Assembly: GCF_032118995.1 (NCBI RefSeq)
Contig: NC_092661.1
Span: 20,059,006-20,123,005, forward strand
From: Asterias amurensis
Taxonomy: Eukaryota; Echinodermata; Asteroidea; Forcipulatida; Asteriidae
DNA length: 64,000 nt
Direction: 5' to 3'
Of this stretch, positions 1 through 30,024 are shown piece after piece. A model generated the notes under the pieces. The model was not told the origin of the DNA, made no database searches, and saw only the letters and a list, made by a program, of their open reading frames with translations. Numbering within the stretch: the first letter of the stretch is position 1; each line of letters starts with the position of its first letter. The position numbers and the translations under genes are program-made.

Positions 1-602
1 TTATTATTTTCCTATAGCACATGATTCAGTCAGAATGAAGGTAACAGATATAAAATCAGTGTTAGAGCCAGTATCAGAATGAAGGTAACAGATATAAAAT
101 CAGTGTTAGAGCCAGTATCAGAATGAAGGTAACAGATATAAAATCAGTGTTAGAGCCAGTATCAGAATGAAGAGCAGGTTTAGGCTTGAAGGCACACTTG
201 AAGTCAAAATAATAGTCTGTTAAAGTTTAAGGGTCTTCTAGCTCAAAGTCAGACTGAATTTAAAGGGCTGGAGCGTTTAATCAAAGTAAAACAAAACGGA
301 ACAGCTTTGTGTTTTTTCACAATTACCTAATGACTAGTTATTGTTATTATGTATCTACTGCCGTGAAGTAAATTATGAAAACTTGACAGGATAATAATAA
401 GAATCTCTCTTTAAGAAGCAGTGTTAGTTTAGAGGATGAAAACATTGATGTTTCAAATGACAGGTGATTACAACATACCAGTAGAAATATCAGTTTGTTC
501 TCTCATCTATTTTTTCTCCAAAGCAGCACTTTATCCAAGAAGTAGGTTTTGGCTCCTAATCTAAATTCCTTTCACCGTCCACACTTTCTTGTTTTCTAAC
601 AG
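1..602. other. Upstream ATM intron (no exon seen)
   Basis: No coding exon is recognisable here. The first ATM exon that can be supported begins at 945, with decoy copies of its start from 603, so this stretch is presumably intron. It holds a three-copy 44-bp tandem repeat at 31-172, described separately. The residues expected just upstream of the 945 exon by comparison with vertebrate ATM are not encoded here, so the rest of the gene lies to the left of the window. Confidence 0.5.
31..172. repeat. 44-bp tandem repeat, 3 copies
   Basis: Copies start at 31, 75 and 119, with a partial fourth at 163-172. Each copy contains GAATGAAG followed by GTAACA, which resembles a 5' splice site. I could not show that the preceding bases are an exon. 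Copies are identical or nearly so, which suggests recent expansion. Confidence 0.9.
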
Positions 603-944
603 TGACAGTAAATACTTACGTACCCTTCATAAGCAATCTGAGATTGATGAGCTAGAGTTGGGTTCACTTTCCACTCCATGTAGAGTATTAAATCTCACTT
701 TTTTGTTTTCTAACAGTGACAGTAAATACTTACGTACCCTTCATAAGCAATCCGAGATTGATGAGCTAGAGTTGGGTTCACTTTCCACTCAGTGCAGAGT
801 ATTAAATCTCACTTTCTTGTTTTCTAACAGTGACAGTAAATACTTATATACCCTGCATAAGCAATCTGAGATTGATGAGCTAGAGTTGGGTTCACTTTCC
901 ACTCCATGCAGAGTATTAAATCTCACTTTCTTGTTTCCTTACAG
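603..944 (+). repeat. 114-bp tandem copies of an ATM exon start with its acceptor
   Basis: Three extra copies start at 603, 717 and 831, ahead of the true exon at 945. Each has the acceptor (TTTTCTAACAG), about 65 bp matching the first part of the exon, and about 50 bp more. The unit is exactly 114 bp (38 codons), and the ATM reading frame stays open through every copy. Using an upstream acceptor would therefore lengthen the protein by 38 residues per copy with no stop. No good donor is visible inside the units, so exon extension is more likely than separate cassette exons. Confidence 0.9.
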
Positions 945-3900
945 TGACAGTAAATACTTACGTACCCTTCATAAGCAATCTGAGATTGATGAGCTAGAGT
1001 TGGGGTCCATGATGGAAGACAGAGAGAACTTCTTACAGAAAGCGATTGAATGCTACTTAAAGTGTCTTCAGCATGGAAGCCAAGATCATGATATGAGAGT
1101 CTTTAGAGTTTGTTCATTGTGGTTTGATAACTCATCAGATGACTATCTTAATCAACTCATACAGGTTGGTAGTAAGGCTTTTACAGTCCTTTTCACACTA
1201 CTCTATTCCCAGGGGTTGATAATGTCTAGCCCCTTTCACACTACTCTATTCCCAGGGGTTGATAACGGCTAGCCCCTTTCACACTACTCTATTCCCAGGG
1301 GTTGATAACATCCAGCCCCTTTCACACTACTCTATTCCCAGGGGTTGATAACGGCCGGCCCCTTTCACACTACTCTATTCCCAGGGGTTGATAACGGCCG
1401 GCCCCTTTCACACTACTCTATTCCCAGGGGTTGATAACGGCAGGCCCCTTTCACACTACTCTATTCCCAGGGGTTGATAACGGCCGGCCCCTTTCAGGGG
1501 ATGATAATGGCTGGCCCCTTTCACACTACTCTATTCCCAGGGGTTGATAACGGCTGGCCCCTTTCACACTACTCTATTCCCAGGGGTTGATAACGGCCGG
1601 CCCCTTTCACACTACTCTATTCCCAGGGGTTGATAACGGCCGGCCCCTTTCACACTTGGATCCCTTCATCCCTGATCTAACGTGGCAATTGGCCATACCC
1701 CTCAAACACCTTTTTTGCTTCTTGAGTAACTCCGGCCTGTGAAATCTCCGCTTTAAAGTGGAATTCTGCTTTTTTCATTTTCCCATTTTGCGTTTTTCTT
1801 GCACTCTGCTTTTTTTCCCATTTGTTTTATCTTCTTTTTTTTTCATTCGAAATAGATCATCAAGCAGCACGTATCTGGAATCGGAAAGCACTTTAATTGC
1901 GATTTGATTTTGACATGTGAATCGGGGGCTAGACCCAGTAAAATGCTCTGCGTTGGTCTTTCATTGGAGCCGTTGTTAATTTTTCGTTTAGCGCGATGTC
2001 CATTATACATGTACTTCAATGTCATTGTTCCATTGCACCAAGAGAGGGCGCTTTACTGAAAGCTGTATTAAAAAGCCAACACCTTGAGACAAGACTAGGC
2101 ACACATGGTCTTCCCACACAACATACGTATGTTGTGTGTGTATTTTGCGACAAGGAAGGTAAACAAATTATATGCCAGTCAGCGTTCTTGCATAGTGCTT
2201 GTGGAATATCTGTCTAAGCAATGTAATAAAAATATCTTGAGAATGAGGATGCACAACACATTGTTACAATGTAAGAATTGTAGCCTATGTTTCTGTGAAT
2301 GTTTTGTCTGCGCTGCAGTTTAAAATCTTTCCTTGTAGTGCTGGTCCAAAATCGAGACAAGTTTCCCGATAGCCCAAAATCCGGACAACCGTTTTCTGCT
2401 GAGTTTTAAAGGTCACCTTAAGCACATCATAAAACAGCAGTGGGATTTGAATTAATTTTCCCTCCCCAGGGTTACATTTGAAGTTCTTCTCATGTAACTG
2501 CTATTTACTGTGTGTTTGTTTTCTTCAGGAATCTTGTGAGAGAATTGAAAGTCGTAAGTTCTTACCCATGTTGTATCAACTAGCAGCTAGGATGACCACA
2601 AAGACTCAAGATAAACAACTGTTTCATGAAGTACTTAATGAGGTAAAGTCACCCAAGAATATTAATATCACTAAATAGTATACAAATAGTGCAATGGACA
2701 TAATCATTTCAGAAATGGAGTGATTAGGAAGATTTAAACGATATTATTATTGTTATTAATCTTTGTATTTAACAATCTTCAGTTGATAGAGAAGATGGCT
2801 AGGGACCATCCTCATCATGTACTGCCTATTATTCTAGCTCTTGTTATTAATCTTTGTATTTAACAATCTTCAGTTGATAGAGAAGATGGCTAGGGACCAT
2901 CCTCATCATGCACTGTCTATTATTCTAGCTCTTGTTATTAATCTTTGTATTTAACAATCTTCAGTTGATAGAGAAGATGGCTAGGGACCATCCTCATCAT
3001 GCACTGCCTATTATTCTAGCTCTTGTTATTAATCTTTGTATTTAACAATCTTCAGTTGATAGAGAAGATGGCAAGGGACCATCCTCATCATGCACTGCCT
3101 ATTATTCTAACTTTTGTTATTAATCATTATATTTAACAATCTTCAGTTGATAGAGAAGATGGCTAGGGACCATCCTCATCATGCACTGCCTATTATTCTA
3201 GCTCTTGTTATTAATCTTTGTATTTAACAATCTTCAGTTGATAGAGAAGATGGCAAGGGACCATCCTCATCATGCACTGCCTATTATTCTAACTTTTGTT
3301 ATTAATCATTATATTTAACAATCTTCAGTTGATAGAGAAGATGGCAAGGGACCATCCTCATCATGTACTGCCTATTATTCTAGCTCTTGTTATTAATCTT
3401 TGTATTTAACAATCTTCAGTTGATAGAGAAGATGGCTAGGGACCATCCTCATCATGCACTGCCTATTATTCTAACTCTTGTTATTAATCTTTGTATTTAA
3501 CAATCTTCAGTTGATAGAGAAGATGGCTAGGGACCATCCTCATCATGCACTGCCTATTATTCTAGCTCTTGTTATTAATCTTTGTATTTAACAATCATCA
3601 GTTGATAGAGAAGATGGCTAGGGACCATCCTCATCATGCACTGCCTATTATTCTAACTCTTGTTATTAATCATTATATTTAACAATCTTCAGTTGATAGA
3701 GAAGATGGCAAGGGACCATCCTCATCATGCACTGCCTATTATTCTAGCTCTTGCTAATGCAAACAAGGATGCCCTCATCACTGCATCTAAGACTACAGGT
3801 AGACTGGCCCGTACTCCCTCATCAGTCAAAGACTCAGATACCAGCCATGCTGATCAAGTAAGTACAACGATTCATCTATAGTTTGTTTATATACAACGTC

Positions 3901-6900
3901 CAAACAGACAAGGAGACTGGCGGCATTGTAAGTCATCCAGAAGCTGAAGCTGATGGTTTGGAACTCTATTGCTCCTTTTGAAGTTAATAAATAGGCGACT
4001 CAAGTCTTACTCGAGTCCAAGACAGCAACTTGATTCAACAACACTTCTTTGACAGCATTTCAGATGGAACATTTCCCTGGAAGATTTGCACAATTTAAAC
4101 TTAATAACATTTCATAGAGCTGCTAAAGAAGAACATTTCTGCTCAGCAAACATAAGCAGGATACCAGTCATAGATGCTACATATAACATGGTATTTTGGC
4201 TGATAACAATATTCTGGTAATCAAGCTACATTTTGTGCATAAGCAGCTCTATAAATTTGGCACCTGAGCTATCAGCTTATTTATACTAAGAAATCTGTTC
4301 AATTTTAACAGTGAATAATTTTGTACATTGACCTTTAACCTTTAGGCCAGAATGCAAGCAGCTAAAGGCATGTTAGAGCGATTGAGATCTACTCCTAGTA
4401 TTCGTGATATTCTTGCTGGATTAGAGAGACTATCTGATGCTTATATTGAACTGGCTTATTGGGATGTCTCGGATCGCAAGAGAGAAACAGGTTTGTATAC
4501 ACAGTTTCTTACCCTACAGTAAGCACACTGGACTCAAGCTCTGGTGTTTCTCATCAGCACAGTGTGGGTTGGAGTCATGGTCATGACTCTTGTGTACTTA
4601 GGCAAGACACTAAATCATTATTGCTTTGTCCTTAGGATGGTATTATATAATAATAATAGTATCACTCAGTGACTCTCATGGCTTCAGTATCGGTATTCTT
4701 CCTGCAAGGTCTGCGGAGCTACGTTTGTAGTATGAGGCATATTCCGTTACATAGCACAATGGAATGGTTTACAAAGTGCTGTGGTGCAATATGGTGCTGA
4801 TCAGACCAGGAACACCAGGCAAATCTCTTTTCTTTACAATAAGAGCACTAGCTTCTTGTACTTGCATTACACCATGTACGGACCTACAGCAACAATAATG
4901 GTTAAGTGGCTTGCTTAAGGTCACAAGTTTCACGACTGGGTCTCGAACCCACACTCTGGTGTTCTTATCCACTTGGCCACGACATGCCAGTTTTCCAACT
5001 GACACACACGGCGGGTCCATTGGCTTGGCAGAGCATTGCATATGAATGTTTAACACACCAATGTGTAAATAACCCATTAAGGAATGCTCCTATACTTTGG
5101 TATAATGCTACGGTCCAGCAGAACATTCTTGTAGTCCAGTGGATTGTGAGTAAAGGGAGGATGTTGTATTTGGCCAGTGGATGTCAAGTTTCTATGTTTT
5201 TTTTACGTGGACAATAAATAAATCTATTCTATTTGTTCTATTCTTGCAGTTAAGAAGCAGAAGAAACTCCCTGACATTACAATAACAAAAAAACCTATAA
5301 GTCACTCTTTACTTTCCCCAGGAGCCATTCGACTTCCCTCGACTCAACCACTGACTCAACTAGAGCACTTACAACATGTTGCCATGCCAACCATGGAGGT
5401 ACCTATTGATGCAAACTGTCGCTATGACAACATAACTTCGATTGAAGGTTTTGAAGGGACGTTCAAGTTAGCTGGAGGGATTAACCTTCCTAAGATTATT
5501 ACTTGCATCGGATCAGATGGGATCAAGAGGAGGCAGCTTGTTAAGGTAAGAAAGGAAAGCATCATCCAAAACATTTACTGTAACACTCCTAGCTCCTTGA
5601 CTCTACTTACTGCAAGTTAAAGATAACACTCTCAGTAGAAAAAGACAAAACCAGACAAAAAAGACTTAATTTGTAATGATCACGTGCCACATTGTGGTGT
5701 GTCATGGTGAAATGGTTAAGAGAACCCAACTAAAGCTCTGGTGTTTCTGATCAGCAGAGTGTTGGTTCAAGTCCTGGTCATGCCCCTGTATCCTTTAGCA
5801 AGATACTTTACCATAACTGCTTTGTCTTCTGGATTAGACATTAAGCTGTAAGTCCCATGCACTACAATTGGTAATAACTGTAAAAGGACCTACATGTAGA
5901 ACACTTAAGATGGAAGAGTAGGGGTTAACCCTAGTGTTTCTTGTTCACATAACAAGCACCGTTGTTTACAGGTTTCCTCAGGCTTGGGAGCTACAGTGAT
6001 TATGTTAGGGGTTAACCCTAGTGTTTCTTGTTCACATAACAAGCACCGTTGTTTACAGGTTTCCTCAGGCTTGGGAGCTACAGTGATTATGTTCACTTAT
6101 GAGGTATCCTTGATATCATTACCAGAATTATTTAGCAATAATAGTAATTCTCAACTTAAAGGTTTGGGTATTTACGAATGGGAATAAAAGAGTAGTGACT
6201 CAGCCGGTTTTAAACGACCATTTAAGACTTTGTCACTGCTTGCTTTTTGGATTAACTAATGACAAATATTCTTACATAGGGGAAGGATGATCTGAGGCAG
6301 GATGCAGTCATGCAACAAGTGTTCTCATTGGTCAATAAGCTTCTTCAAAGAAATCAAGAAACAAGAAAACGGAGACTGCAAATCAGAACATACAAAGTAA
6401 GATTGTAGGTCATTATCAGTCAAAGGTAGAAACATAGCTAGTTTTTCAAAACCTTGAGGTTGGGCCTAATTGTTATGATTGATAATTATGGAAATTCCAG
6501 ACATAACAAATTATCAAGATATCAATTATATGATGAACAAACCCATTTTACAAGTTAAAATAGCATTCATATTAATAATGTTCACTCAAGTAGCTTCTAA
6601 AACACAATAAGCACTTTGAGATAATAAAGTTCTTTATAAGACTGGGTTATTATAATTACCTATGTGGGATAGCCCCGGAGAATACCTACAACCACAGAAT
6701 GTGACCTTGTTAGTTTTTGTTTCTTGGCCTTTAGATTGTACCTCTTTCTCAGCGTAGTGGCTTACTAGAATGGTGTGAGGGTACAATGCCTATTGGTCAA
6801 TATCTCATTGGGAATCAAAGGACTGACTTTGGAGCTCATAAACGCTACAGACCTCAAGATTGGACATCCATGGAATGCAGATCTAAAATGGCGGTAAGTT

Positions 6901-9900
6901 AGAAATATTCAGTAAGAATTATAATAAGAATGGCTTTCATGTTTCCCTGATCAGTAAAGCATCAATTATCATGAGAGTTGTATTGGTCATTCACATTGGT
7001 TAAATTGCATAAGAGATGCAGAGGAAGACCGATTTGACCCATTACACTGGCATTGCTAGCCCTGGCAAACTTGCAGGAACTAGCTACCCCTGCTTTGGAG
7101 TTGAGTCAAGAGAGACTATCAGGGTTAGCATAACAAGTGTTTATTTCCCAGAAAATTTCTTTGAGAACTAATTTGACGTGTTCACATTTGAATTGTTGTA
7201 ACCCTGGTGTACTCTCTTTAGAAAAAGCTACCCCTGCTTTACAAACCTGTCATTGGTTGAGTGTTTTGAACCACAACGATGCCAGGCTATGCAAGGGGGT
7301 CTACAGTATGTCTTTGACTGTTTTTACAGACACATAACAAAGTTGATAAATTAAATTTTAAAAAACTTATGTTGTGATGTTTTTACTCGTAGCAAGCGCA
7401 CAAAAGCTCTGAACAAGGGAAGAAGTACAGAGAGTATTTGGCTGTGATGGCACATTTCAAACCGGTGTTCCGTCATTTCTTCTTGGAGAAGTTTCCTGAC
7501 CCTGCTGTGTGGCTTGAGAGGAGACTAGCCTACACAAGAAGTGTAGCTACATCCTCTATTGGTAAGACAACTATTTGTTTGTCAGTGAGCAGGTTGTTGG
7601 ACATTGTAGTGTCAAGTTGCTACATTATATTTGCTTGAGTCAAGAATAGCCTACACAAGCTACGCTTGCTGTTCAAATATTCATGTGTTTGAATTTGAAT
7701 AAAAATGATTTTTTAAGAATTATTATGAACTAAGACTTGAAATTTCAAAGAATTTTTAATAGTGATTCACCCATTACAAAATCTGTACTTTCAAACACCT
7801 TCTTTGGCGAAAAGAAATATTTCCAATTGTATTTATTTGTTTGATTGATTGTTTATTAATTTTAGTTGGGTACGTTGTTGGTCTTGGGGACAGACATGTA
7901 CAGAACATCCTGGTGGATTGTAACCTGGCTGAGTTGGTGCACATTGATTTAGGTGAGTAAATATTCTTGATGTCCTCATCAAAATTAATAATCTCTTCAC
8001 TTGTGTTTGGCTCTCTCTGGGTTCTATGTCTATAATATGCATTGATCATGTGAGTGTTATAAGCAGAGATGCATGGACAGATGTTTTTATTAAAGATAAT
8101 TGCCCTAGTTGTACAAATCCAGTGTGATTCTAATGTATTTATAACCCAGTTGATAATGTGAGAATCTAATTCAGTTGATAATGTGTGATTCTAATGTATT
8201 TATAAACCCATTTGATAATGATTGATTGTATTCAGGTGTGGCCTTTGAGCAAGGAAGGATTCTACCAACTCCAGAGACTATTCCCTTTAGGCTTACTAGA
8301 GATCTTGTTGATGGAATGGGTATCGCTGGAGTGGAAGGGGTCTTTAGGAGGTAAGAGAGACCCCCCCCCCACTATTCCCTTTAGGCTTACTAGAGATCTT
8401 GTAGATGGAATGGGTATCGCTGGAGTGGAAGGGGTCTTTAGGAGGTAAGAGAGACACCCCCCCCCACTATTCCCTTTAGGCTTACTAGAGATCTTGTAGA
8501 TGGAATGGGTATCGCTGGAGTGGAAGGGGTCTTTAGGAGGTAAGAGAGACACCCCCCCTCCCACTATTCCCTTTAGGCTTACTAGAGATCTTGTAGACGG
8601 AATGGGTATCGCTGGAGTGGAAGGGGTCTTTAGGAGGTAAGAGAGACACCCCCCCCCCCTCCCACTATTCCCTTTAGGCTTACTAGAGATCTTGTAGATG
8701 GAATGGGTATCACTGGAGTGGAAGGGGTCTTTAGGAGGTAAGAGAGACACCCCCCCCCTCCCACTATTCCCTTTAGGCTTACTAGAGATCTTGTAGATGG
8801 AATGGGTATCGCTGGAGTGGAAGGGGTCTTTAGGAGGTAAGAGAGACACCCCCCCCTCCCACTATTCCCTTTAGGCTTACTAGAGATCTTGTAGATGGAA
8901 TGGGTATCGCTGGAGTGGAAGGGGTCTTTAGGAGGTAAGAGAGACACCCCCACTTTTCCCTTTAGGCTTACTAGAGATCTTGTAGACGGAATGGGTATCA
9001 CTGGAGTGGAAGGGGTCTTTAGGAGGTAAGAGAGACCCCCCTCCCACTATTCCCTTTAGGCTTACTAGAGATCTTGTAGATGGAATGGGTATCGCTGGAG
9101 TGGAAGGGGTCTTTAGGAGGTAAGAGAGACCCCCCTCCCACTATTCCCTTTAGGCTTACTAGAGATCTTGTAGATGGAATGGGTATCGCTGGAGTGGAAG
9201 GGGTCTTTAGGAGGTAAGAGAGACCCCCCCCCCCCCACTATTCCCTTTAGGCTTACTAGAGATCTTGTAGATGGAATGGGTATCGCTGGAGTGGAAGGGG
9301 TCTTTAGGAGGTAAGAGAGACCCCCCCCCCACTATTCCCTTTAGGCTTACTAGAGATCTTGTAGATGGAATGGGTATCGCTGGAGTGGAAGGGGTCTTTA
9401 GGAGGTAAGAGAGACACCCCCCCCCACTATTCCCTTTAGGCTTACTAGAGATCTTGTAGATGGGTATAGCTGGAATGGAAGGGGTCTTTAGGAGGTAAGA
9501 GAGACACCCCCCCCCACTATTCCCTTTAGGCTTACTAGAGATCTTGTAGATGGAATGGGTATCGCTGGAGTGGAAGGGGTCTTTAGGAGGTAAGAGAGAC
9601 ACCCCCCCCACTATTCCCTTTAGGCTTACTAGAGATCTTGTAGATTGAATGGGTATCGCTGGAGTGGAAGGGGTCTTTAGGAGGTAAGAGAGACCCCCCC
9701 CCCCCACTATTCCCTTTAGGCTTACTAGAGATCTTGTAGATGGAATGGGTATCGCTGGAGTGGAAGGGGTCTTTAGGAGGTAAGAGAGACCCCCCCCCCA
9801 CTATTCCCTTTAGGCTTACTAGAGATCTTGTAGATGGAATGGGTATCGCTGGAGTGGAAGGGGTCTTTAGGAGGTAAGAGAGACCCCCCCCCCACTATTC

Positions 9901-11532
9901 CCTTTAGGCTTACTAGAGATCTTGTAGATGGAATGGGTATCGCTGGAGTGGAAGGGGTCTTTAGGAGGTAAGAGAGACACCCCCCCCCCCCCACTATTCC
10001 CTTTAGGCTTACTAGAGATCTTGTAGATGGGTATAGCTGGAGTGGAAGGGGTCTTTAGGAGGTAAGAGAGACACCCCCCCCCCCCCCACTATTCCCTTTA
10101 GGCTTACTAGAGATCTTGTAGATGGAATGGGTATCGCTGGAGTGGAAGGGTCTTTAGGAGGTAAGAGAGCTGCTAAATGAAATTTCTGCCTTGATAAAAA
10201 GAGGATTACCAACCAAATTTCCACATGACTTTCAGGATGAGCAAACATAAGCTGAATACCAGTAACAAGCAATATGCAACAATTGGAAATGTTGTTTGTA
10301 ATCCTGTTTTTATCAAGGAAGAATTTTCATGCTGAGTAAATTTTTATGCTTAGCGGCGCTATGAAATTGGGCCCTGGGCACAATTTGATGGCACTGCTTA
10401 TCATATTAAAGGAAAGTGTCAGCGCTTATGGAAGCAGGAATTCCACGCAGCCATCAAGCATAGTTCATTGGTTAGCAGGGATTTGTTTTTCTTGTGCACA
10501 AGGGTTGTCCACATTACTAGACTATCTTCACTTGGCACAGCTAGTGCAGAAACTTGGTGCTTTCTCTGTAAGTGCAGTATTCACTGGTAAGTTGAATGTT
10601 TCAATCAATATAGTTTTTGACAATGATACTGATTCCGAATTGCTTTGATTGTTTAGGTGTTGTGAGAAGACAATGGATGTAATGCACAACTCACAGGAGG
10701 CTTTGCTCACCATACTCCAGGTAAGGTCATAGGTTACCAACATGTAGGCATTAATTATCCACTAGTAGGGATCTCTGTGTATACAATGTGTATAGTGCTT
10801 TGGGTAGGTAGCATTGCCCCTCATTGAGACCACTTTATTTCACTAGGTTTTGGTCACACAAGTTGTTATTGATAGTTCCTTTTGCCAGTACCAGTGTATC
10901 TCAAAGTCAAGATCCATGCCTTTTGGAGAAGGTGTCAATGATCTTTATGTACATGCAGTAGTCCTAAATAATAGACAGTTCTAGTGGTGACTATTTATTT
11001 TATAATATCTTTACATGTATAGAAAGTAGTGCATTGTGCTATGTAATGATTATAAGTGCCTCCTATTTTATAGATTATGCCTCATTGAGTTGGTACCAGT
11101 GCCTCATTGAGTAGAATTAAGTTTCTCTTATTGAGTCTGTCTGGGTACTAAGTGTTAATGGTTCATGATGATTCTTTTACTACTCATCAGGTACTTCTAT
11201 ACGACCCTCTCTACATCTGGACCATGTCTCCACATAAAGCCATTGCACTCCAACAGCGCCGCGATCGCAACGACCCCGATGCCTCAGACCTCAACACCAC
11301 CGCAACAGACCTTCCAGATGGTGAGACAACCTTCAAAGGTCAAGACAGTAATGATGGGTCAGAGGTTAACAAGGTAGCTGAGAGGGTGGTACTAAGATTA
11401 AGGCAGAAGCTACAGGGTGTAGAGGAGGGGGTCGCAATGAGTGTCAAAGGTCAGGTCAACAGATTAATCCAAGAAGCTACTGATTCTAAGAATCTATGTC
11501 GAGTCTTTCCAGGTTGGCAACCTTGGTTGTAA
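945..11532 (+). CDS. ATM: ATM serine/threonine kinase, C-terminal part
   Basis: DNA double-strand-break checkpoint kinase of the PIKK family; nuclear and activated by MRN. Twelve exons are readable: 945-1164, 2529-2642, 3693-3857, 4346-4490, 5250-5545, 6280-6396, 6735-6893, 7393-7561, 7866-7952, 8236-8350, 10657-10720 and 11191-11532. All phases match and give about 663 residues against roughly 3050 for whole vertebrate ATM. Visible in order: end of the FAT domain ([35 protein letters not shown]); the kinase N-lobe lysine region ([19 protein letters not shown]); catalytic loop [14 protein letters not shown]-equivalent HIDLGVAFEQG; activation region [20 protein letters not shown]; and the FATC end [22 protein letters not shown] with stop TAA at 11530. 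The 5' two-thirds of the gene lies off the left edge. Three exons have tandem copies of their own boundary beside them. Identity is near certain; exact splicing around the arrays is not. Confidence 0.95.
1188..1656. repeat. 43-bp minisatellite just downstream of an ATM exon
   Basis: About ten full copies plus one shortened copy near 1497-1510 begin only about 25 bp after the donor at 1165. Each unit has a pyrimidine-rich CACTACTCTATTCCCAG followed by GGGTTGATAA, so each resembles a 3' splice site. Copies differ mainly at the GGCCGG, GGCTGG and GGCTAG positions. Confidence 0.92.
1657..2528. other. ATM intron remainder
   Basis: Ordinary intronic sequence between the 43-bp minisatellite and the exon at 2529. 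Short open frames at 1843-2323 show no domain or codon signal. Nothing else is recognised. Confidence 0.6.
2740..3692 (+). repeat. 91-bp tandem copies of an ATM exon start with its acceptor
   Basis: Ten copies, spaced 91 bp, precede the true exon start at 3693. Each holds an acceptor (AACAATCTTCAG, or CATCAG in one copy), the first ~55 bp of the exon (codons for [12 protein letters not shown]...), then TTGTTATTAATC. 91 is not a multiple of three, and reading past the exon-like part meets TAA in the linker. Use of an upstream acceptor would thus add a premature stop, unlike the 114-bp array. Small shared variants (GCTAGG versus GCAAGG) recur in more than one copy, suggesting segmental expansion or conversion. 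Confidence 0.92.
4105..4267. mobile_element. Small foldback element (GGGCCCAATTTCAT family)
   Basis: In the ATM intron 3858-4345. The left end (TTTCATAGAGCTGCTAAAG) and the right end (GCATAAGCAGCTCTATAAAT) are inverted copies of each other. The same termini recur at 10166-10374 and 60716-61109, and as fragments near 11540, 13740 and 39560, so this is a dispersed non-autonomous family. No coding capacity. Confidence 0.7.
4505..4760 (+). mobile_element. SINE-like fragment, degraded
   Basis: Contains ACTCAAGCTCTGGTGTTTCT and the downstream GTGTGGGTT-type segment shared with the tRNA-derived SINEs at 5701 and 59862 (- strand). The tRNA-like head is mostly lost. Intronic in ATM. Confidence 0.5.
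4868..4995 (-). mobile_element. tRNA-derived SINE fragment
   Basis: On the minus strand it shows an A-box-like TGGCCAAGTGGATAAG and a B-box-like GGTTCGAGACC about 25 bp downstream, followed by SINE body. It lies in the ATM intron 4491-5249. Pol III internal promoter elements are visible but it has no full tRNA fold. Confidence 0.6.
5701..6170 (+). mobile_element. tRNA-derived SINE with an internal 87-bp duplication
   Basis: The head shows A-box-like TGGTGAAATGGTTAAGAG and B-box-like GGTTCAAGTCC. The body runs through GGGGTTAACCCTAG to CCAGAATTATTT. The same order is found at 59545-59862 on the other strand, which defines the family. The segment starting at 5921 is repeated at 6008, an 87-bp tandem duplication (29 codons long, but not coding). 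Lies in the ATM intron 5546-6279. Confidence 0.7.
6397..8235. other. ATM introns with little structure
   Basis: Introns 6397-6734, 6894-7392, 7562-7865 and 7953-8235 contain no repeat array or gene that I recognise. A 25-bp duplication around AGTTGATAATGTG is visible near 8148-8220. Confidence 0.6.
8280..10170 (+). repeat. About 95-bp tandem array of ATM kinase-exon end plus donor (20 copies)
   Basis: Copy 1 is the 3' part of the true exon 8236-8350. Nineteen more follow, starting near 8371, 8466, 8562, 8662, 8762, 8861, 8951, 9046, 9139, 9237, 9331, 9426, 9516, 9610, 9706, 9800, 9894, 9991 and 10088. Each unit runs from a poly-C tract of variable length, through ACTATTCCCTTTAG (acceptor-like), a 60-nt exon piece and the donor GAG/GTAAGAG. 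The 60-nt piece starts in the phase left by the true exon and has no stop in most copies. Exceptions: units at 9426 and 9991 lack 5 bp, the unit at 9610 has a TGA, and the last lacks one G. Confidence 0.95.
10166..10374. mobile_element. Foldback element abutting the ATM array
   Basis: Directly follows the last array unit (TAAGAGAG/CTGCTAAATG). The arms CTTGATAAAAAGAGGATTAC and its near-complement (GTAATCCTGTTTTTATCAAG) are inverted, and the right end is ATGAAATTGGGCCC. The left end lacks the GGGCCCAATTTCAT expected for the family, so it is truncated where it meets the array. Confidence 0.7.
10721..11190. other. Last ATM intron
   Basis: Intron between the exons ending at 10720 and starting at 11191. 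Contains a short local duplication of GCCTCATTGAG near 11079 and 11101. No gene or mobile element recognised. Confidence 0.6.
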
Positions 11533-14546: not shown

Positions 14547-17500
14547 TCAGCGTTTAACGCAGCAGACTTTGAATTTTGGAGCATACATGACGAGACCTCC
14601 AGTGGGTAGATCTAGAGGCGGGAGCCCCTCTCCTTCTGGTACCTTGAAGGTGAATCGTTGTAAGATGGTCACAGTGAATATAAACAGCTCCATCTTAGTC
14701 AATGCTTCACCCAGACACATACGCCGACCTGAAAATTGGCAGGAATTAGACAAGGAATAATCAATTTTTAGTCATTTGCATATGCCCTGTTTTTTCCTGG
14801 AATCACTGGCAATTTTGGTGTGTACAAAGAACACATTGACTGGAATAGGATTCGAACCTGTGACACCTGGATTTACATTCTAGTCAGAATTTTAAACTAG
14901 GGGTGGCAGGTTCAAATCCCATTCCAGTCACTCGTTGTTCACTCCAAAACAAGAATTTCTAAATGAAACCATTCTCCAACCAGGTACTTTTATGTTGCTT
15001 TATTATTCCTGGGGTTTCACCAAGGTTAGTTATACTTTGTCCAGTGTGTTTGTTTGTTTTGTCTTGTTTTGATGTTAACTTACCCAAACCAAAAGGAATC
15101 CAGTCTTTCCTAGGAACGAGTGTCTTTCCATCTTCAGACAGGAATCGCTCTGGTCTGCATTCAGTGGGATTGTCAAATACTGCTGGATTGTTGTGAATGT
15201 AGAAAACATTGCCAAACACTGGAGTTCCTACACACACAAGTAGATAGCAAACAAATACAAAATAAGACGAGTGTTTTGTCAACATGAAAATTACTGAATT
15301 TTCCAGCAAGAAAGAAATAAGAACAAAATTGCCCTGTTTGTATGATAGATAAAACAGTGAAGACAGTGGGAGCACTGACGCCTAACGCCTTTTGCAATGT
15401 TTTAATGTAACTAGTTAATCTTTTTTGTTTCATGTACTAAATGATAATTGTTGGTTTATAAGACAATTATTAGTTTGCAAAATAAGAATATTATTTTGTT
15501 TAAAAAAATGTTAGCTCTAAAATATGTAAAAATACTGAGAAACAAATATGAGAAAGGTTATTGTAAACAATAGGTGAACAATTCTTTATACAATTTTTGT
15601 TGTATTTCTCTTTAATTCTTTGAGCTAATATCCAAAGTTGAATCAATTACCCTTTGGAATGTTATAACCGCACAATTGAACTCCAGACTGTTGTAGATGT
15701 CTAAAGATGATTGCCGCTAGAGGGCGCAGTCTCTGGACCTCCATCAAGAAGGCACATGTGTATGGCATTGCTTCTCTGTGTGTAGTGGAGACTATGCCAT
15801 TTGCTCCCACGGCGTGATCTATCTCAGCCAGTATCTGTGTTCAATTAACACAACATAAACATTGATATAAATTGTTTTTAATTGGTGATAACCTTTTGTG
15901 TATAAAACGTATAAGGAAGAAGATAACTTGTGACAAAATAATGTGTTAATGTATAAATGAAAAAGTTGTGACATGGTTCGTTGAAATTGAAAGTCTTTCA
16001 AAGCGCAAATTGATCTTCAAATATGTTTAAATATCAACAAGAAATATTAGTATTTTGTGTATACGACAGAAGGTTGTACTAATGAAAGGGTTGAATTTTT
16101 TCACAAGTTTGCAGTAAGAGTGTTACTATGATTTTTGATGTATTTACAAAATATTCCTACTTTTTTTTATACAATGGTGGCAAATTGTTATAATTTATTT
16201 TACTTTACCTTTTTCTGTATTTCGGGGTATCGTATCAAATACACAATGATCCACAGTGTGGTATTAGACAAGGTACCAGTCCCTGCTCCAAACAAGTCCG
16301 ATATACTGTGTACAATTCCTAGCTCACTATGTTGTATTGGATCGTTGGTTTCCTGACGTCTCTCCATCTCAACTAGATATGCATCCATCATATCCCGTAA
16401 GTTGGTTCGATCCAATGTGGCTTTATGACGTTCCAAATGTGCCCAGATGAAGTCCTCATGCGCTTTGAACATTCCTCGTCGTCTCTTGTACCATCTTGAA
16501 TGCCATAGTGGTGGGATAATATTAGCAGGCTCTAACAGTCTTACTCCTTCAATAAGCTCCATCATGATGTTAAGCTGCTCCTCAAAGTTCTTATCATGGA
16601 AGTCGTATCTCGTCCCGTAAGTGATTGTACTAATGATGTTAGATGAAGCATTGAAAAGGAGGCTGTTTAGAATCACAGGTTGCCCGTTGAGTCTTTCCAT
16701 CTCTTGACAGAAGAATCGCCCTTCTTCCTGGATGCGAGATTCTAAGCTTCTCTTACCGAATCCGAAACCTCGAAGTGTCTTCAAGGAAAAACGTCTTCGT
16801 TGTCTCCATTTCTCTCCGTTCTCCCAGAAAAGACTGCCTGGTATTAAAGTAAAACGATCATTATCCGAATAGCTAATAATATGCGATCTCAATTAACTTG
16901 GTCAAATTTTAATGGGGTTGTGCAAAAGTTCTGAAAATGCTTTCATACTTTAATATGTTTTAATAAGGGAATACCAATATGAATAGCGAAACTGTCTGAG
17001 GTTTTTATGAATAGATGTTTCAAATGTGCATAAGGGTTAAAGAATATTAAATGTGTTTTACTTTTTATACATGGCAGGCCATTCATTTTTGCAAATGTCG
17101 AGAGGTTCGGATCCCACTCAAGTAATATTTACCTGTGGACTTTTTCCCCAAAAAGTATGTGGTAGTAGACGATGTAACTTGGGTTTAAATGATACTTTTT
17201 TTGATAATGTATAAGTCCTGCAGGATGTCTTACCTACATCTCGTTTACTCTCTAAAACCCAAGACATTATCATATTATCTGAGAACTCATCAGCTCTGCT
17301 CACATAAGCACTTCTCAACGTCTCGTAGTCACTCAACATCACTACAAGCTGCGGCCCCATACGAATGCTCAAGATCTTGCCATATTTATCAGCAAGATTG
17401 CAAAAGGAAACCAGTGGGTCCGGGAAGAGCCCAGGGAGGTAGCCGAGTAGAGGCCAACCCATGGGGCCTGGAGGAAGATTCTTTGGCTTGAGAATGTAGA

Positions 17501-17618
17501 TGAGGAAACATATGAGGCAAACTATGACTGCTGTTATAATATGCTGGCTCTGGATGAACTCCGGCAGCATCGCTTGCCTGACTGCCTCCATGATAAATCC
17601 CTCCACAAGAATATCCAC
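14547..17618 (-). CDS. Cytochrome P450, CYP2 clan, complete
   Basis: Microsomal haem monooxygenase; the substrate cannot be told. Five exons, transcribed right to left: 17618-17234, 16837-16209, 15834-15651, 15227-15084 and 14728-14547. They total 1524 nt, with consistent phases, and encode 507 residues, the usual CYP2 length. Visible: N-terminal membrane anchor (residues ~25-43); hinge LPPGPMGWPLLG; C-helix region WRQRRRFSLKTLR; I-helix FGAGTGT near residue 310, where CYP2 proteins usually have AGTET; K-helix EVQR; RPERF; and the haem loop FGLGRRMCLG, which is split by the last intron with cysteine ~452. The first ATG (17618) is chosen; in-frame ATGs at 17591 and 17570 are alternatives. The 629-nt second exon fuses several exons of vertebrate CYP2 genes. 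It converges on ATM, with 3 kb between the stops. Confidence 0.94.
14835..14932. mobile_element. tRNA-like inverted fragment
   Basis: TGACTGGAATAGGATTCGAA and GTTCAAATCCCATTCCAGTC are inverted repeats about 50 bp apart, each containing a B-box-like motif. It lies in the last intron of the P450 gene. Probably the remnant of tRNA-derived SINE ends in inverted orientation. Confidence 0.5.
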
Positions 17619-19072
17619 AAGGTTTGGATTTCTCTTGTGCAGGAGGTGTGTAGTTCTCTGCAGTTCTCTGGTGTTCTGGACTAAAGTCTGTGTCGAGAAT
17701 GGTGAACCTCCCTCGTGATCTTTGGAATTTATACTAAATGATAAAGGCTAGCAGGAATTTGACCCAACAAACTATGCTGTGGCTAAATTTGTTTCAAAAG
17801 CATTTGTTTATTCTGCTTAACTTGGCTTGTCGCTGCTGTATCAGTGTGTTATTTGTTTATAAAGTTAAAAACATTATATGCGGATTCGGTGCTACAAGCA
17901 GCTAAAAAAAGCTATATAATTTTTCAGAAGCCTGTTATTTGTTATGCTGGATCCAACAAAAAATTAATTCTCAATGAAATAGTATATCAGAGAGACCTGA
18001 AAATCGATTTGTGTTTAATTTTAGAGAATAGGCAATGTGAGGTCTAGTTAAAATGTCTATATTTGTCAGTAAAAAGGTTCATGGTGGGATATAGCATTAT
18101 CTGTTACTCTTTGTTAATTGAAATGGAGGTCAACATCGGTATTGAAATAGACCAGTGTATTGTTTGGGAAACTAATAATAGTAGATTATCACACTATTAA
18201 TCTTGAACTTGGGATGCTAAAGTTCAGTACGGGGCATGCAGGAATTATCACACAGTGTGCAGTAACCCCTTCGACCTGTATTTAATTGAACTTTGTTGGG
18301 TACCCTTTTTATTAGCATGAGTATTGATAGTTTCTGCATATACGAGCCAGCCTACTGCTTGTGTGGTCTCAGTGTTAAATTCAAAATTGTGCCCCCCCCC
18401 CCTCCAAAACAACAAGCGGAACATACCAGTGGTACTATAGATAGGTAGGCCAAGGCCTAATTGAAAACAAACACAGCTCAGAATATGAATAATGTTTTTC
18501 AGTTTTTTAGTTTACAGTGTGAGTTGCGAATGGAATCGTTTTTACAAAACAATACAAATGTTATTTTTTTAACCGTGTAGTCTTTTCGAAACGAAAACAT
18601 CATGAGATAGGCCTAGGCACCATACTTCCACACCTTGAGTTGTTGCGCCTGCACTACACTGTTTAAGTTTTCTAAACGAATCAGTTTCGTTTGATGAACT
18701 TTTCAATTATCCCTATACCCCGCCACTGTGCAATTTGTTGTGAACAGTAACCAGTTCACGTTATAGCACCCGTTGTGTTCATTAGCTGAAATTCTCATTT
18801 CCTTTGATCAAAGGTCTTTAGAAACTTCCATTACGTGTGTTGTCTTTTTATTTAATAGGTAGATAATCATACGCCACTCACAACCCTATTATAATGTCCT
18901 TAGAGATTACCATGAGGCCCTGTATTATTAGAATCACATTCGTTTCTCTGCTATAGACCTATAAAAACTAAATTTAATATTTAAAAATAGATTTATGGTC
19001 TATTGATAAACCTGTAGCCACCCCTCCGAGATTAATTTGTCTCACCAAAAAGGTTTGGAGCCCTTTCTGTGA
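17619..19072. other. Spacer 5' of the P450 gene
   Basis: Upstream of the P450 start; it should hold the P450 promoter, but I see no clear TATA box. A poly-C tract lies at 18392-18403. No gene is supported. Confidence 0.5.
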
Positions 19073-19082
19073 CCATATAAGG
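19073..19082 (+). promoter_or_regulatory. CArG-box match overlapping a TATA-like motif
   Basis: CCATATAAGG fits the SRF consensus CC(A/T)6GG exactly and contains TATAAG. It lies about 130 bp upstream of the orphan ATG at 19205, in a locally GC-richer stretch (GACGCGCAAGCGCAG). Placement is suggestive of a promoter; function is inference. Confidence 0.35.
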
Positions 19083-19204
19083 ACAAAGGGTTCTCACTTG
19101 TTGGTGTTATGCAAATCAGCCTAGTGGCGTGACCCCACGACCCCGAGAGACGCGCAAGCGCAGTAGCCGTGCCGTCCGTGAACGTTTTTCATACTGAAGA
19201 AGCA

Positions 19205-19297
19205 ATGGACGACTTCAACATGTTACATGTCTTCGTCTCAGAAATTCAATATTTTGACCGCGATTCCGGCTTCAAAATTACCCCCAAAGGATGCATG
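19205..19297 (+). CDS. Candidate orphan first coding exon
   Basis: ATG at 19205 opens 31 codons, ending exactly at a good donor (GCATG/GTAAGT) in phase 0. The peptide starts MDDFNMLHVFVSEIQ and ends FKITPKGCM. It follows a CArG/TATA motif and a GC-rich leader, as a real first exon would. I recognise no family, and no downstream exon is evident in the following 3 kb before the minus-strand CAP gene. It may be a gene with long introns, a retained promoter, or chance. It is divergent from the P450 gene. Confidence 0.3.
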
Positions 19298-22055
19298 GTA
19301 AGTTGAGAGAGTCTTTGTTCGAATAATATGAAAGTATGAAAATATTACTCGTAAACTTTGAAGAATATTAAGCTTGTTTCCAGTACAGGGCGGTAAATTA
19401 AAGATTGAAAATACCACGTGTGGATGTGACGTGAGCAGACGATATTTTAGTGTTCAGTTTTGTGTTTGTTGACATGTTTACTTTTGTGCTTTTGACATGT
19501 TAAGTTTGAATTCCGACCCTTTATTGTTTGGCTCTTAAGTAGAAGAAATTTTAACCGTATTTCCCTCTTTACTTTTGAATGTTTTTAAAAAGTGGGAACA
19601 AGTTATGGAGGCCTGAAATAGAGCATATTGAAGTCCACCACTTCATGATGGGGGTAGGCAAACAGTAAGGGGATTGGGATCTCCTCTCCTTAAAAAGTGG
19701 GCTGACCTTACCCTACTCCTAGAACTATGACGTTCGTTCCTATGAGTAACCTTACCCTAGCCAGGATTCAGGTCCTATTATGACTGGTAGGTGGAGTGAG
19801 GCAATTGAAAACAACAATTTAAGTCACAAAGGACAAATATATAGCAGTGTATATACACAGCATTTTATTGGTTTAAGTTGAGTTGACCAGACCCAAGAAC
19901 AAAGAAATACAAAAGCAATATAATTAATAAGCTAATAAGATGATTACTAAGTGTTGAGGAGATTGCATTTTTTAAATGCAAATAGGGGTTTTCTCTATTC
20001 TAAATTTTCCGTTAGAAGATTTGCAATGAGATGATCTTGAAAAGTTAACCCAAGCTTAAAACTAGATTACAACATTAAAATTCACTAAGAAAAACTTTCT
20101 GAACCCTTCTTGTTACCTAGTACCCTCAGTTTTTCCCTTTTAAGTACTCTCGTCCAAAGCAACAAAAAAACTTTTCAGTTTTGTGAATTCAAAACAGAAA
20201 ACACCAACTCAAAAAAAAAAGACACAAATTTCAGCCACAAATTTTTAGTCTGGAGAGCGTGCCTCGTTATCAAACACAGTTTTAACCACGTGTGAGCCGT
20301 TTTCATCCAGCGACTAGGAACACTGACCCAAATTTGAAACGATGCGCACTAAAAGTTTGTTCTCTGCAGAAAATATTAAATTATTCTTGAAAAACACTTG
20401 TAGCTGTCACTGACCACGGTGTTTTAGTTATGACACTTTGCATTTCCAAGCTTAAACATTTGAACTTTAGTTTCTGGCAACCATTGATCTCCGCAGTATA
20501 ATGGAGATAATTGGTTTCAACTCCTCGGTAAACATGTTAAAAGTGACGTCGGGGGTTGGAAAGAAGGGGCTTTTGATAATCAATGGGCAGAGAAGGAGGG
20601 TTGAGTTAAACTCAAATACTCTCTTGGTGTGTTAATCTAATTAGTTATCTTAAAAACCTTATAAGTTGAACGTCTGCATGGCGGTCTTAAATGACTATTT
20701 TGCCCTCGGTAGGGGGGGGGGGGGTTGATTAGAACCAGGGTTTTCAACATTTATATAATAGAAAACGAATAACATTTCATGAGAACAACTTCGTTGGGTT
20801 TATTTCGTATAATATCTCGCATAAAGACATACATTTCAAATAAATAACTGGCCGTTTTTAACAACCCATGTTTTTAATAACAACCGGATGTCAACTTTAT
20901 TAAAATCATGCAATTATAGACAATGTTTTAGTAATAATCTTCCGTTTTGAGGATTTTAAAAGCACGATTTCATTAATAATAGTTTTGTCGGAAGGGGAAC
21001 TGCTTGTGAATATGGGTTTCAAATAAAAAATCTCATGTTGGTAATATCTTCAGCTCGGGCGTCTGAAAAATGTTGAACATTTCGGTAAACCCATAAATAA
21101 ATAAAACGTTTATTTGACGTAGCTTTATTTATATATCATAGAACCTCCGGTGGATATTACAATCATTTAACAAGTATTGATAGCTCTATAGTGAACTATT
21201 GAAGCGGTCGTTGATCTTTCTTCTTTTTCAACCCAGTCAAGCGGAACCAACAGCGGATCATGACGTCATCTATTAGTCCAGAGCTGTCAACAAAAATAAA
21301 ACACCAAACGTTTTTTAAACAAAAGACCGTATAAGTTTTCCCTGTATTTTGACGATTGGGGGGAATTTTCAAGTATAAAACGTCTGATGACGTCACAATT
21401 TTTTCGTTGTCTATTTTAAAGTACTTAAAACGTGCAAGTCACAATTACATACGACGTCATCTGACCGCCATCTTTGATAAAATAAATGAAATCGTCCTGT
21501 GCACGCGCGACACGCTGCGCACAGTTCACATTGTGCATGTTTCATCAGAGATTGTGACTTTTAGCAGCAACGCAACGCTGGATGACACGCGTACGTATTG
21601 TGACACTCCGTGCATGTAAAATCATGTTGCTCTAGCATGTACCCGCATTGATAATGAAAGTGACAAGGATCAATTGATTTCCATTATAATTGAGATCAAA
21701 TAGATTGGTATATCCTGTTGGAACAGTTTGGAAAGTCATTGCGTCACACGTGCGCGTATCTGCCTCACCTTAAAATGGTTGTGTGTTTGTTTTCTTCAAA
21801 AATTACATGTTATCGTTCAAAAGCATTTCTTATGACAGAAACGTTTAGATCCTTTAAAAACTTAGTATACAAAATGTAATATGATCTGTGGTGATTGAAA
21901 TGGTTACTGGTTGCCTTTTTTTTTTTTTTTTTTAATGACTTATTTCTAATGACTTAAATATTTTTCAGAGTCATTAGTCAAACAGTCAACACCAATAACT
22001 AGTATTTCTTGCATGCACGCATCCCTGTAGGTGTTCCTTTTTCTGTAATGATGTA
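19298..22055. other. Gene-poor spacer
   Basis: No exon that I can support. Holds a poly-G run at 20713-20724 and a poly-T run near 21919-21932. An open frame on the minus strand at 21196-21296 follows an acceptor-like TTGTTGACAG, but in the phase left by CAP exon 4 it stops after three codons. Confidence 0.5.
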
Positions 22056-24623
22056 TTAAAACATGCACACTATACCTTCCATGTCACTGGGGGTCTCAAA
22101 ACACCTTCGTCGACGTGGTTTGGATTTCTTAGAGCAGAGATTGTCCTTGCAGGAGGTGAAGCCGTCTGGGCAGGCGCTGCATTTCTTACCAGACGTATAT
22201 GGTTTCTCACCAATCATGTTGCCGCTTAAGAGAAACATAGACAAAGAAACATTTACCATTAATTATTGTTTATCATAACCATAGGGAGATATTCACTCTT
22301 ACTTTATTTCATTCCTGCATTTAGGTTTGTGATGGTTTCGATTGTAGCTCTTACTTTATTTCATTCCTGCATTTAGGTTTGTGATGGTTTGGATTGTAGC
22401 AATTCAAATAATTAACGGTAATCACTTTTGAAATTGGAATTGACGGTAACACGTTTTTTATGGATTCGCCTTGGATTTTTAAAAAAACTTTATGCATGTT
22501 TGATTATTTCCATTGTGCGATTTAAGTGCAATATAAAGCAGTTGTCATTAAAACTAGGGGTCTACGAAGTATATGGATTTGCTCGACATGACAGTATTTT
22601 ATGTGGAATAATTCTCTGGGTGAACTTTCTACTTTGTGAAACTCTTTATCTACCCGGGGCTCCCCGATGAGGCAAGTCGGCATCACTAAAAAGTCATTGA
22701 AGACTAGGAACCACGATTTACTATAACTTACCCGATAGCGTAGTTACAGACGAGTCGATTAGGCAAGTATCCAGGACAACCAAGCTTCACACCACACCCT
22801 ACGAAATGAGTCTTGGCCCATACCATCTGAAAATAACAATAATATTAGGTGTTGGTTAACGGGCTGCGGATCTGACAACGGTTGACATTTGCACCAAAAG
22901 TTTAATAATTTTGTTATCAAACTTTTTATCAAACTAATTCTAAGCCATTTTATAAGGGCTTGGTGTTGACATACGGGCTCAATACATAGTTGCTTTATTA
23001 ATTCACTCCTCAAGAAAATGTATTTGTTATTTAGAGTGTAGTTGAGGTTTGCGAAATGTATTTGTTATTTAGAGTGTAGTCGAGGTTTGCGGTATCACCA
23101 TGTGTGTTATTCTCTGTTGAGTAGTGCTTGGTTTCTTAAAGAAATGGTAATTCACATCTTAACATTTCGATCAGTATGGTCTGATCGTCTTCAGGAGAAC
23201 GAGTTGTATGAAGTTGAGCCCCGTCAAGTTTGCTCAGAATGAGAGTTGATAAAAACTATCGGAACAACTGTTTGGGTTTAAGGTAGTCATTTGTAGAAAG
23301 TTGTGTAATTTATTGTCATGGATGTAACTTATTGTCATTGTCAATGTCATTCACCCGACTCAATGTCCGCGCAGTGGGTCATCAATATTGTTTATGAAGA
23401 GTTTTTGGAGCAAGTAATTTCGGGGGTCATTTTACAGTAGGCCCCTATTGGATGTCATTTATTGTCATTGTCACTGTCATTTACCTGAATGTAATGTCCA
23501 CAAACTCTAAGCAGTGGATCACTATAGGGTGTGGGTTGCGTTGATTGGAGTAAGTCATTGGGTCATTTACAGTAATGGATGTCATTTATTGTCATTGTCA
23601 ATATGTCATTTACCTGAGTGTAATGTCCACAAGCTCTCAGCAGTGGGTCACTAGGGTGTGGGTTGCATTGATTGGAGTTGTAGTCGAAGATCTGCTGTTC
23701 TTCTTGCCACATTTGCACCATATTTCCCAGATCTTTCTCAGTACTGAATGCCATGTTCTCTCCAATCCAACTCCATGATTTGCCGCTGATGGTATGGGAA
23801 GGGTTGTGGCCAAGGGTACATGTATCCGCCCAGTCCTGGGCCTTCTTTGCCAGTGAATTGTCCCATTCCTGATGGTCAATTATATGCGGACAATTATTAT
23901 ATTAATTACTTCAAATTACCAAGATCGATGTCACAGAGTGTCGTCCAAGTGTTACTTCTACCAGATAAAGACCATAACCACTCGGCCTACGATAACAGGT
24001 ATTATTTCGACATTAAATTGAAAAACTAAAACAGGCATTAAAGTTAGTTATACCATTGGCCTAAAAACGGTCTCACACAAATAAAACAAACCAAGTAGTT
24101 CAAATTAATTGTGCAAGAAAATACAGTATGAATGACAAACTAGGGTTGCACCTGTTCGACAATCCCTATATTGTGCCATCTCAAACGAAACAAAAAATGC
24201 ATTCAAAGGCACGAACAAAAAACAAATAATCCATAATGCAAAATATCACATTTTACAATTCTTAAGACGCTTTATTAAAATAAAATAAAAAGTCGTATAT
24301 TGCGTTTATCTAACTAAAACAAAGGTCTGGAAACAATATAATTGTGAATGGTGGCACAAGTCAAAATTTGTCGCAGTGTCTTAAAATGTAGACCTAAGTA
24401 CAACACTGAATCAAAGTTGAACATTGATCGGACATCAGAAATGCAATTCTCAATTATGAAATAATGTTCTAAGACTTACCAGTTTCACCATATCAGATGC
24501 TTTAATGGAAGCACGGAACTCATTATGCTGGTTAAGGATTTTTTGTTGTTCCTTCTTGCTTAACCCAGCAGCAGCAGCATAGCCGATAATACAGCATACG
24601 ATAAGAACAAGTGAAGTGTTCAT
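22056..24623 (-). CDS. Secreted CAP-superfamily protein (CRISP/PR-1 like)
   Basis: Four exons on the minus strand: 24623-24480, 23868-23614, 22826-22732 and 22224-22056. Phases agree and give 220 residues. A signal peptide (residues 1-~19, hydrophobic, ending AAAAG) is followed by a single CAP domain: HNEFRA, CTLGHNPSH, IGENMAF, the CAP1 signature GHYTQMVW and the CAP2 signature LVCNYAIGGN. A short cysteine-rich tail with a basic KPRRRR patch follows. The CAP cavity residues (His of LGHN, Glu of GEN, Glu of WQEE, His of GHYTQ) are all present. CAP proteins are extracellular and bind lipids or serve as immune, reproductive or venom components; the role here is unknown. The end is ambiguous: reading on gives a stop at 22056, but GAAG/GTATAG at 22076 could be a donor to a further exon. 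The 3' end of exon 2 is repeated in the next intron. Confidence 0.9.
22296..22399. repeat. 52-bp direct duplication in a CAP intron
   Basis: Two nearly identical 52-bp copies start at 22296 and 22348 (CTCTTACTTTATTTCATTCC onward). They lie about 70 bp from the acceptor of CAP exon 4. Intronic and non-coding. Confidence 0.9.
22995..23205 (+). mobile_element. Dispersed element with GATCAG/CTGATC hairpin
   Basis: Shares GTTTGCGGTA(A/T)CACCATGT and TTTCGATCAGTATG(C/G)TCTGATC plus CGTCTTC(A/T)GGAGAA with 34965-35090. A 45-bp segment is tandemly duplicated at its left (22998 and 23052). A further fragment of the left motif is at 14315. No coding capacity; class unknown. Confidence 0.6.
23317..23680 (-). 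repeat. Tandem copies of the 3' end of CAP exon 2 with its donor
   Basis: The true boundary is at 23614. A copy at 23449-23555 repeats the last ~70 bp of exon 2, its donor (CAG/GTAAATGACA on the minus strand) and about 40 bp of intron, with a few changes. A third, more decayed copy lies at 23317-23440, and its donor is degraded. The unit is about 118 bp. Exon-like parts of the copies keep the CCACTGC..GTGGACATTACA core. Confidence 0.85.
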
Positions 24624-24709
24624 GATGACGAGCAGTAGACAGCTTCCTCTGTGGATGTAACTCTGTTGATGCTTAGAGGCAACTGAGATATCCAGGGGGC
24701 TTGGATGTG

Positions 24710-24719
24710 CTTTTATATA
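24710..24719 (-). promoter_or_regulatory. TATA box of the CAP gene
   Basis: On the minus strand TATATAAAAG lies about 90 bp upstream of the ATG at 24623. That predicts transcription starting near 24680-24690 and a 5' leader of about 60 nt. It is a strong TATA match, fitting for a tissue-specific secreted protein gene. Confidence 0.6.
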
Positions 24720-24723
24720 CTCT

Positions 24724-27899: not shown

Positions 27900-28090
27900 T
27901 GAAAAGGCACTCTTTGAAGAACCATATGAGGGACAACTCTTTTTCGAGTGTTCTTCCACTCTTTTAGATTGAAGTTTGCATCTTTTTGAGTGATTTTTCA
28001 CCTGGAGTGAAACCCCTCTAAAAGAGTGAAATAACCACCACTCTTTTTAAAGAGCCATATGAGGGACAACTCGAAATGTAAATAGTGGTG
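27900..28090. repeat. Diverged direct/inverted repeat with AGGGACAACTC
   Basis: CCATATGAGGGACAACTC occurs at about 27921 and 28055. Between them are complementary ACTCTTTTAGA and TCTAAAAGAGTG arms. Likely a small foldback element with a duplicated terminus. Confidence 0.55.
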
Positions 28091-28684: not shown

Positions 28685-28686
28685 AC

Positions 28687-29932: not shown

Positions 29933-30024
29933 TAAGTTCCTCAAATCTCAACATAAACAGCTGTGTATAAAGGCTTTGTCAAACACGAGATGTAACTTTT
30001 CTGCACTGATTATGTTTTATTTAG

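Follow-up and report, generated by a model that had tools for sequence, protein, structure and literature searches.

One exon/intron boundary of a putative sea star ATM gene is repeated in tandem to give an array of 20 units, found in the 64,000-nucleotide stretch of DNA analysed here (the window). From its sequence, we consider it very probable that this array is an intronic 'mirage' minisatellite, in which the exon/intron boundary has been multiplied in tandem, and that it is removed when position 8350 is joined to position 10657. This join would be the most likely outcome of splicing. A preliminary description had proposed that splicing ignores the extra units, that the animal makes ATM variants with repeated activation segments, or that the array controls splicing or expression; the sequence appears to support the first of these best. 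We judge that the value of the array lies in a natural experiment and in a warning for gene prediction, and not in a new system of ATM isoforms.

An exon end repeated in the ATM kinase region

A spliced model of 12 exons, running from 945-1164 to 11191-11532, forms a single open frame that ends in TAA. Over 634 residues the modelled protein is 85.0% identical to the ATM of Patiria miniata, and it is 83.8%, 73.5% and 64.5% identical to the ATM proteins of Acanthaster, Amphiura and Diadema, respectively; for the same part, Patiria and Acanthaster share 89.8% identity. With exon 8235-8351 as the query, ATM chains in the PDB were the best matches (best E 5.9e-18). The exon model and the PDB matches support the assignment to the ATM kinase domain made in the preliminary description, and by these sequence comparisons the gene that bears the array is ATM, with its C-terminal part intact. 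The relatives of this gene and of a monocarboxylate transporter gene in the window suggest that the animal is most likely a sea star, and on these grounds we rejected amphioxus as the source. The 11 modelled introns measure 283-2306 nt, and the longest is the one that holds the array and consists mostly of it (Table 1).

Table 1 Features of the ATM gene and its boundary arrays
Feature	Position	Strand	Basis or content
Tandem array, 20 head-to-tail units	8277..10169	+	Tandem Repeats Finder and unit parsing
19 extra exon pieces (described as decoy mini-exons)	8385..10160	+	15 open 60-mers, 1 with TGA, 2 x 55 nt, 1 x 59 nt
Authentic ATM exon	8236..8350	+	Donor GAG/GTAAGAGAG, phase 2; 12-exon model, PDB ATM matches
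Inferred intron, 2306 nt, containing the 19 extra units	8351..10656	+	Exon model
Next authentic ATM exon	10657..10720	+	12-exon model
Last ATM coding exon, stop TAA	11191..11532	+	12-exon model
Second boundary array in ATM: acceptor and exon start, 114-nt unit, 3.7 copies	582..1004	+	Exon starts at 945
Third boundary array in ATM: acceptor and 58 nt of exon start, 91-nt unit, 11 copies	2750..3753	+	Exon starts at 3693

Tandem Repeats Finder reported the array at 8277-10169 with a period of 94, 19.9 copies, 95% matches and a score of 3248. Each unit is composed of 74 nt of the exon 3' end, the donor, approximately 10 nt of intron and a C run, which unit 20 lacks. The authentic 3' end of exon 8236-8350 forms unit 1, and the other 19 are extra copies. 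The exon end ACTATTCCCTTTAG is found in every unit (with a single-base difference in one) and is followed by 60 nt, or in three cases by 55 or 59 nt. In 20 of 20 units the piece is closed by the donor GAG/GTAAGAGAG, with GAGGTAAGAGAG common to all of these donors. Parsing thus recovered the nineteen extra units with a shared donor that had been described earlier. Chance would not come close to producing twenty copies so nearly identical.

Across all 20 units the exon piece measures 60 nt in 17, of which 16 are open and one (9624-9683) contains TGA. The two pieces of 55 nt (9440-9494 and 10007-10061) share a 5-bp deletion, and one base is missing from the final piece (10102-10160), which measures 59 nt. 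These are the exceptions that the preliminary description had listed (two 5-bp deletions, a TGA and a 1-bp loss in the last unit), and all of them are present. In line with its statement that the 60-nt pieces begin and end in the same phase, 15 of the 19 extra units are open and in phase; the other four are those just listed. Judged from the phases and the anatomy of the units, it was also correct that any number of them could be spliced in without breaking the frame. Successive pieces are separated by 31-41 nt. The C run at the junctions of units 1 to 19 has 5 to 14 C and is absent from the 45-50 nt inspected on each flank of the array. Runs of at least eight C or G (9 to 25 bases) occur at 17 other places in the window, and a C run is therefore not special to this array.

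Phase and splice sites of the extra units

The phase of the extra units can be traced to the codons that they copy. In the real exon, CCC TTT AGG encodes Pro-Phe-Arg, and the AG of the 'acceptor' is the first two bases of the Arg codon. Twenty codons further along, the donor splits another Arg codon, that of the last residue of VFRR, between its second and third bases. We compared this spacing in 129 ATM-size proteins (at least 1500 residues) among the matches listed, which for one search were the best 120 of 129; these proteins are mostly vertebrate, mostly predictions, and include eight named echinoderms. In 124 of the 129, the Arg of PFR is 19 residues from that of VFR, and our Arg-motif expression found no motif in the remaining five. 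Because the spacing of the Arg codons is conserved, any tandem copy of the exon end yields an in-phase 60-mer, whatever the cause of the copying. The idea that the units were phase-matched for a purpose is thus not supported, since the match follows from conserved codons.

The same reasoning bears on the acceptor. The sequence CCCTTTAG, which had been read as an acceptor, is acceptor-like in the extra units, but it is the coding sequence for Pro-Phe-Arg, and its copy in unit 1 lies inside the real exon. The pyrimidine tract described ahead of the extra units is present and is mainly the C run at the junction, which gives the AG a more acceptor-like setting. We take the repeated segment of ATM to lie in the activation loop.

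To score the splice sites we used matrices built from the gene model. The donor of the array is the highest of the 11 real donors, with a score of 11.6 in a leave-one-out matrix. The acceptor matrix is a rough one, built from 12 real sites; by it, the extra acceptors of 12 units score 1.3 bits, that of one unit 2.2 bits and those of six units 5.7 bits, all within the range of the real acceptors scored leave-one-out (-2.2 to 12.9 bits). Among 322 other intronic AGs, with those in the three boundary arrays excluded, scores exceed 2 in 14.6% and 0 in 20.5%, and the extra acceptors outscore about four fifths of them. By this 12-site matrix the extra acceptors are not obviously dead, a point that we count against the array being a mirage.

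YTNAY is the branch-point motif. It occurs at -50 to -12 in 10 of the 12 real acceptors and in 0 of the 19 extra acceptors; the closest upstream YTNAY of the first extra unit is at -74, and each of the other 18 has its closest one within the preceding unit, at -86 to -97. The gaps between pieces, set against introns of 283-2306 nt, make direct joining of neighbouring units hardly possible, and only joins between non-neighbouring units would have a normal intron size. When the real acceptor is paired with a later donor, read-through past the first donor gives AGG AGG TAA (VFRR, then stop), an immediate stop. A second copy of the ATM segment (RDxVDGxG-type) was found in 0 of the 129 ATM-size proteins, which are among the matches listed, come from other species and are mostly predictions. 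We also considered a hairpin that pairs exon GGGGUCUUU with intron AGAGACCCC and places the donor in its loop. It can form in 19 of the 20 units at -10.9 to -16.0 kcal/mol, and ten other real donors gave -1.8 to -6.8 kcal/mol. In three hairpin-bearing units it proved no better than dinucleotide shuffles (z of -0.76, 0.04 and -0.48), and we therefore built no argument on it.

Proposed formation and removal of the array

We propose that a stretch reaching from 74 nt inside the exon to approximately 10 nt into the intron was duplicated between presumed breakpoints that share AGAG. This tetranucleotide occurs both at the left edge of the array, CCAGAGACTATT, and in the sequence that flanks the last unit on its right, GTAAGAGAGCTG, and it suits slippage or microhomology joining. 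The C run would have grown at the junction, and local duplication would then have expanded the array to 20 units. Consistent with such duplication, as in minisatellites, the junction types are clustered: 10 of 18 neighbours are alike, versus 4.5 expected by shuffling (P 0.004, with types assigned by eye). GTT is found only in unit 1 and GTA in the 19 others, as expected of an edge unit that lies outside homogenisation. The changes that we counted in the extra units include one stop and three frame breaks. Their sequences have nonetheless decayed little; concerted evolution explains this low level of decay, but selection fits it too.

During splicing, the spliceosome would pair the authentic acceptor (8235/8236) with the donor closest to it (8350) and join that exon to 10657, and all 19 extra units would leave with the intron. 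Donor strength cannot decide among donors that all match the real one, and the choice must instead depend on position and on the weakness of the extra acceptors. A choice by position could operate through exon definition, or through use of the first donor to be transcribed. The phase match would come free with the duplicated codons. The array therefore offers an exceptionally clean natural test in the gene of a major DNA-damage kinase, with twenty identical 5' splice sites, one real acceptor before them and one after, in which donor choice tests exon definition and first-transcribed choice unconfounded by site strength.

The main rival to removal of the whole array with its intron is a regulatory one. 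The extra units could act as pseudo-exons that bind U1 and U2AF and engage the flanking sites unproductively, such that the intron is held or the transcript decays; this would set the level of ATM, and copy number would tune it. The closest functional analogue appears to be the decoy exons of retained introns. In the text available from the study of OGT (PMC12017769), a single decoy exon with usable-looking alternative sites was tested and promotes intron retention, and decoy exons are reported for other human genes, with SF3B1 and ARGLU1 named. As described there, such decoys resemble the ATM units in being exon-like intronic pieces with plausible splice sites that are rarely spliced in, but the ATM units differ in being tandem copies of the upstream exon end, with a hypothetical role. 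That the longest of the gene's 11 modelled introns contains 19 units whose donors are strong and whose acceptors are moderate is in keeping with a regulatory role, as is the immediate stop that a later donor would give with the real acceptor. However, the units are byproducts of exon-end copying, they contain a stop and frame breaks, none of the 19 extra acceptors has a branch-point motif nearby, and the two other boundary arrays in ATM copy exon starts only. Together these points make such regulation unlikely. Quite unlikely, on the sequence, is an extended form of this proposal in which array length and the state of splicing factors set full-length ATM, as 19 pseudo-exons, most of them in matching phase, compete with the real donor through their own strong donors and through C-rich acceptors that PCBPs could switch on, with rare isoforms that carry repeated activation segments. 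In mammals, poly(C)-binding proteins (alphaCP/PCBP) can activate C-rich tracts before cassette exons, according to the portion of that literature available. The likeness to ATM lies in a C-rich tract ahead of an acceptor; as that portion describes them, the mammalian tracts precede true cassette exons, whereas the tract in ATM is an expansion at a unit junction.

It is very improbable that the units are spliced in as 60-nt cassettes to give ATM proteins with repeated activation segments. Fifteen of the 19 extra pieces are open, keep the phase and have AG and GT at their borders, the extra acceptors score within the real range, and the annotated Amphiura ATM has in-frame tandem copies of other segments. 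Nonetheless, no second RDxVDGxG-type copy appears in any of the 129 ATM-size proteins among the matches listed, the spacing at this site is constant in 124 of them, and the kinase would probably not tolerate an insertion there. The lack of YTNAY in its usual range and the 31-41 nt between neighbouring units also argue against cassettes. We likewise give very little credence to the idea that the array, or the length it has, is an artefact of assembly or sequencing. Errors arise readily where C runs are long and units nearly identical, but the variants that distinguish these units are clean, shared or clustered (the 5-bp deletion shared by two units, GAC and ACT types, and C/T junction types), and stuttering does not make such variants. 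The two other boundary arrays and many further arrays in the same window also speak for a real array, even if its copy number may be off.

Related repeats and the surrounding window

By its anatomy alone, the array would be filed as an amphioxus-type mirage: its repeat unit lies across an exon/intron boundary, the array includes the authentic boundary, at one of its edges, and the gene keeps an intact frame. In the portions available of the two amphioxus reports (PMC3087553, PMC3902484), mirages affect both 5' and 3' exon boundaries and many units have AG/GT signals, and RT-PCR of Adh3 and globin is said to suggest undisturbed splicing. The globin paper, as available, also describes 6 and 3 repeat units in two haplotypes of BflGb6, and proposes that mirage units can become new exons and introns (PMC3087553). 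Minisatellite-like units that carry an exon/intron boundary, many with AG/GT signals, are thus common to both cases as far as these portions describe them. The two differ in that the host is a cephalochordate there and an echinoderm here, that ATM has 19 extra units compared with the 6 and 3 given for the BflGb6 haplotypes, and that the ATM units have both an acceptor-like site and a donor, in phase, with three arrays in one gene. We recognised no boundary repeats from echinoderms or other non-amphioxus animals in the open-licence literature, judged mostly by titles and the starts of abstracts. The array would be best explained as a minisatellite of known type whose host belongs to a phylum in which our search of that literature met with no earlier case, and echinoderm mirages would extend a phenomenon described from amphioxus.

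In-frame tandem repeats are found in three of the 129 ATM-size proteins among the matches listed, and all three are from echinoderms, of which eight are named in the set. The annotated ATM of Amphiura filiformis has a 33-residue unit three times and a 29-residue unit twice, in frame; a Lytechinus prediction has a 12-residue in-frame tandem repeat; and a prediction from Anneissia japonica has a 157-residue near-duplicate, possibly an effect of annotation or assembly. Since these are gene predictions, the repeats may reflect annotation and not mRNA, and the Amphiura copies are perhaps mirage units called as exons. Predicted proteins of array-rich animals may hold spurious in-frame repeats, for which Amphiura filiformis ATM is a candidate.

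In the second boundary array of ATM (582-1004) the last copy continues into the exon, and in the third (2750-3753) the last copy alone continues into the real exon. The 114-nt unit of the second equals 38 codons, and the full array lies inside one frame (ORF 565-1272); use of its first acceptor (exon start 603) would therefore add three 38-residue copies to ATM. In all three boundary arrays the copy used in the gene model is the one nearest to the opposite splice site of its exon; this reflects the location of the remaining exon sequence and does not test splicing. Seven arrays make up 36% of positions 1-11532, compared with 13% of the window for its 25 arrays, and this density is what stands out in the ATM span. 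Boundary-straddling arrays number three of the seven, versus 1.1 expected (P 0.07), and special targeting of exon boundaries need not be invoked. Another ATM intron contains two exact 87-nt copies (5919-6093) with an acceptor-like TTGTTTACAG; they have no match to Patiria or Amphiura ATM among the matches listed. Outside ATM, two 52-nt copies at 22296-22400 include a short open piece and the sequence CATTTAG, which resembles an acceptor. A Pfam search of four of the six frames of approximately 18000-33000 gave nothing at E up to 0.01, and that array is thus tied to no gene.

The window also holds other genes. On the minus strand, 31357-44728 contains a tandem pair of monocarboxylate transporter 13-like genes, each matched in four exon blocks. 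For a monocarboxylate transporter gene of the window, the proteins named among the matches (15 of 21 listed) are all from sea stars (Asterias, Patiria and Acanthaster), and one of the other six is 97% identical. Downstream of ATM, pieces of a cytochrome P450 lie at 16200-17747 on the minus strand. A reverse transcriptase fragment (PF00078) at 45864-46805, also on the minus strand, presumably belongs to a mobile element. An open frame at 41398-42264 has a C-type lectin match, together with a PAN match below the curated cut-off.
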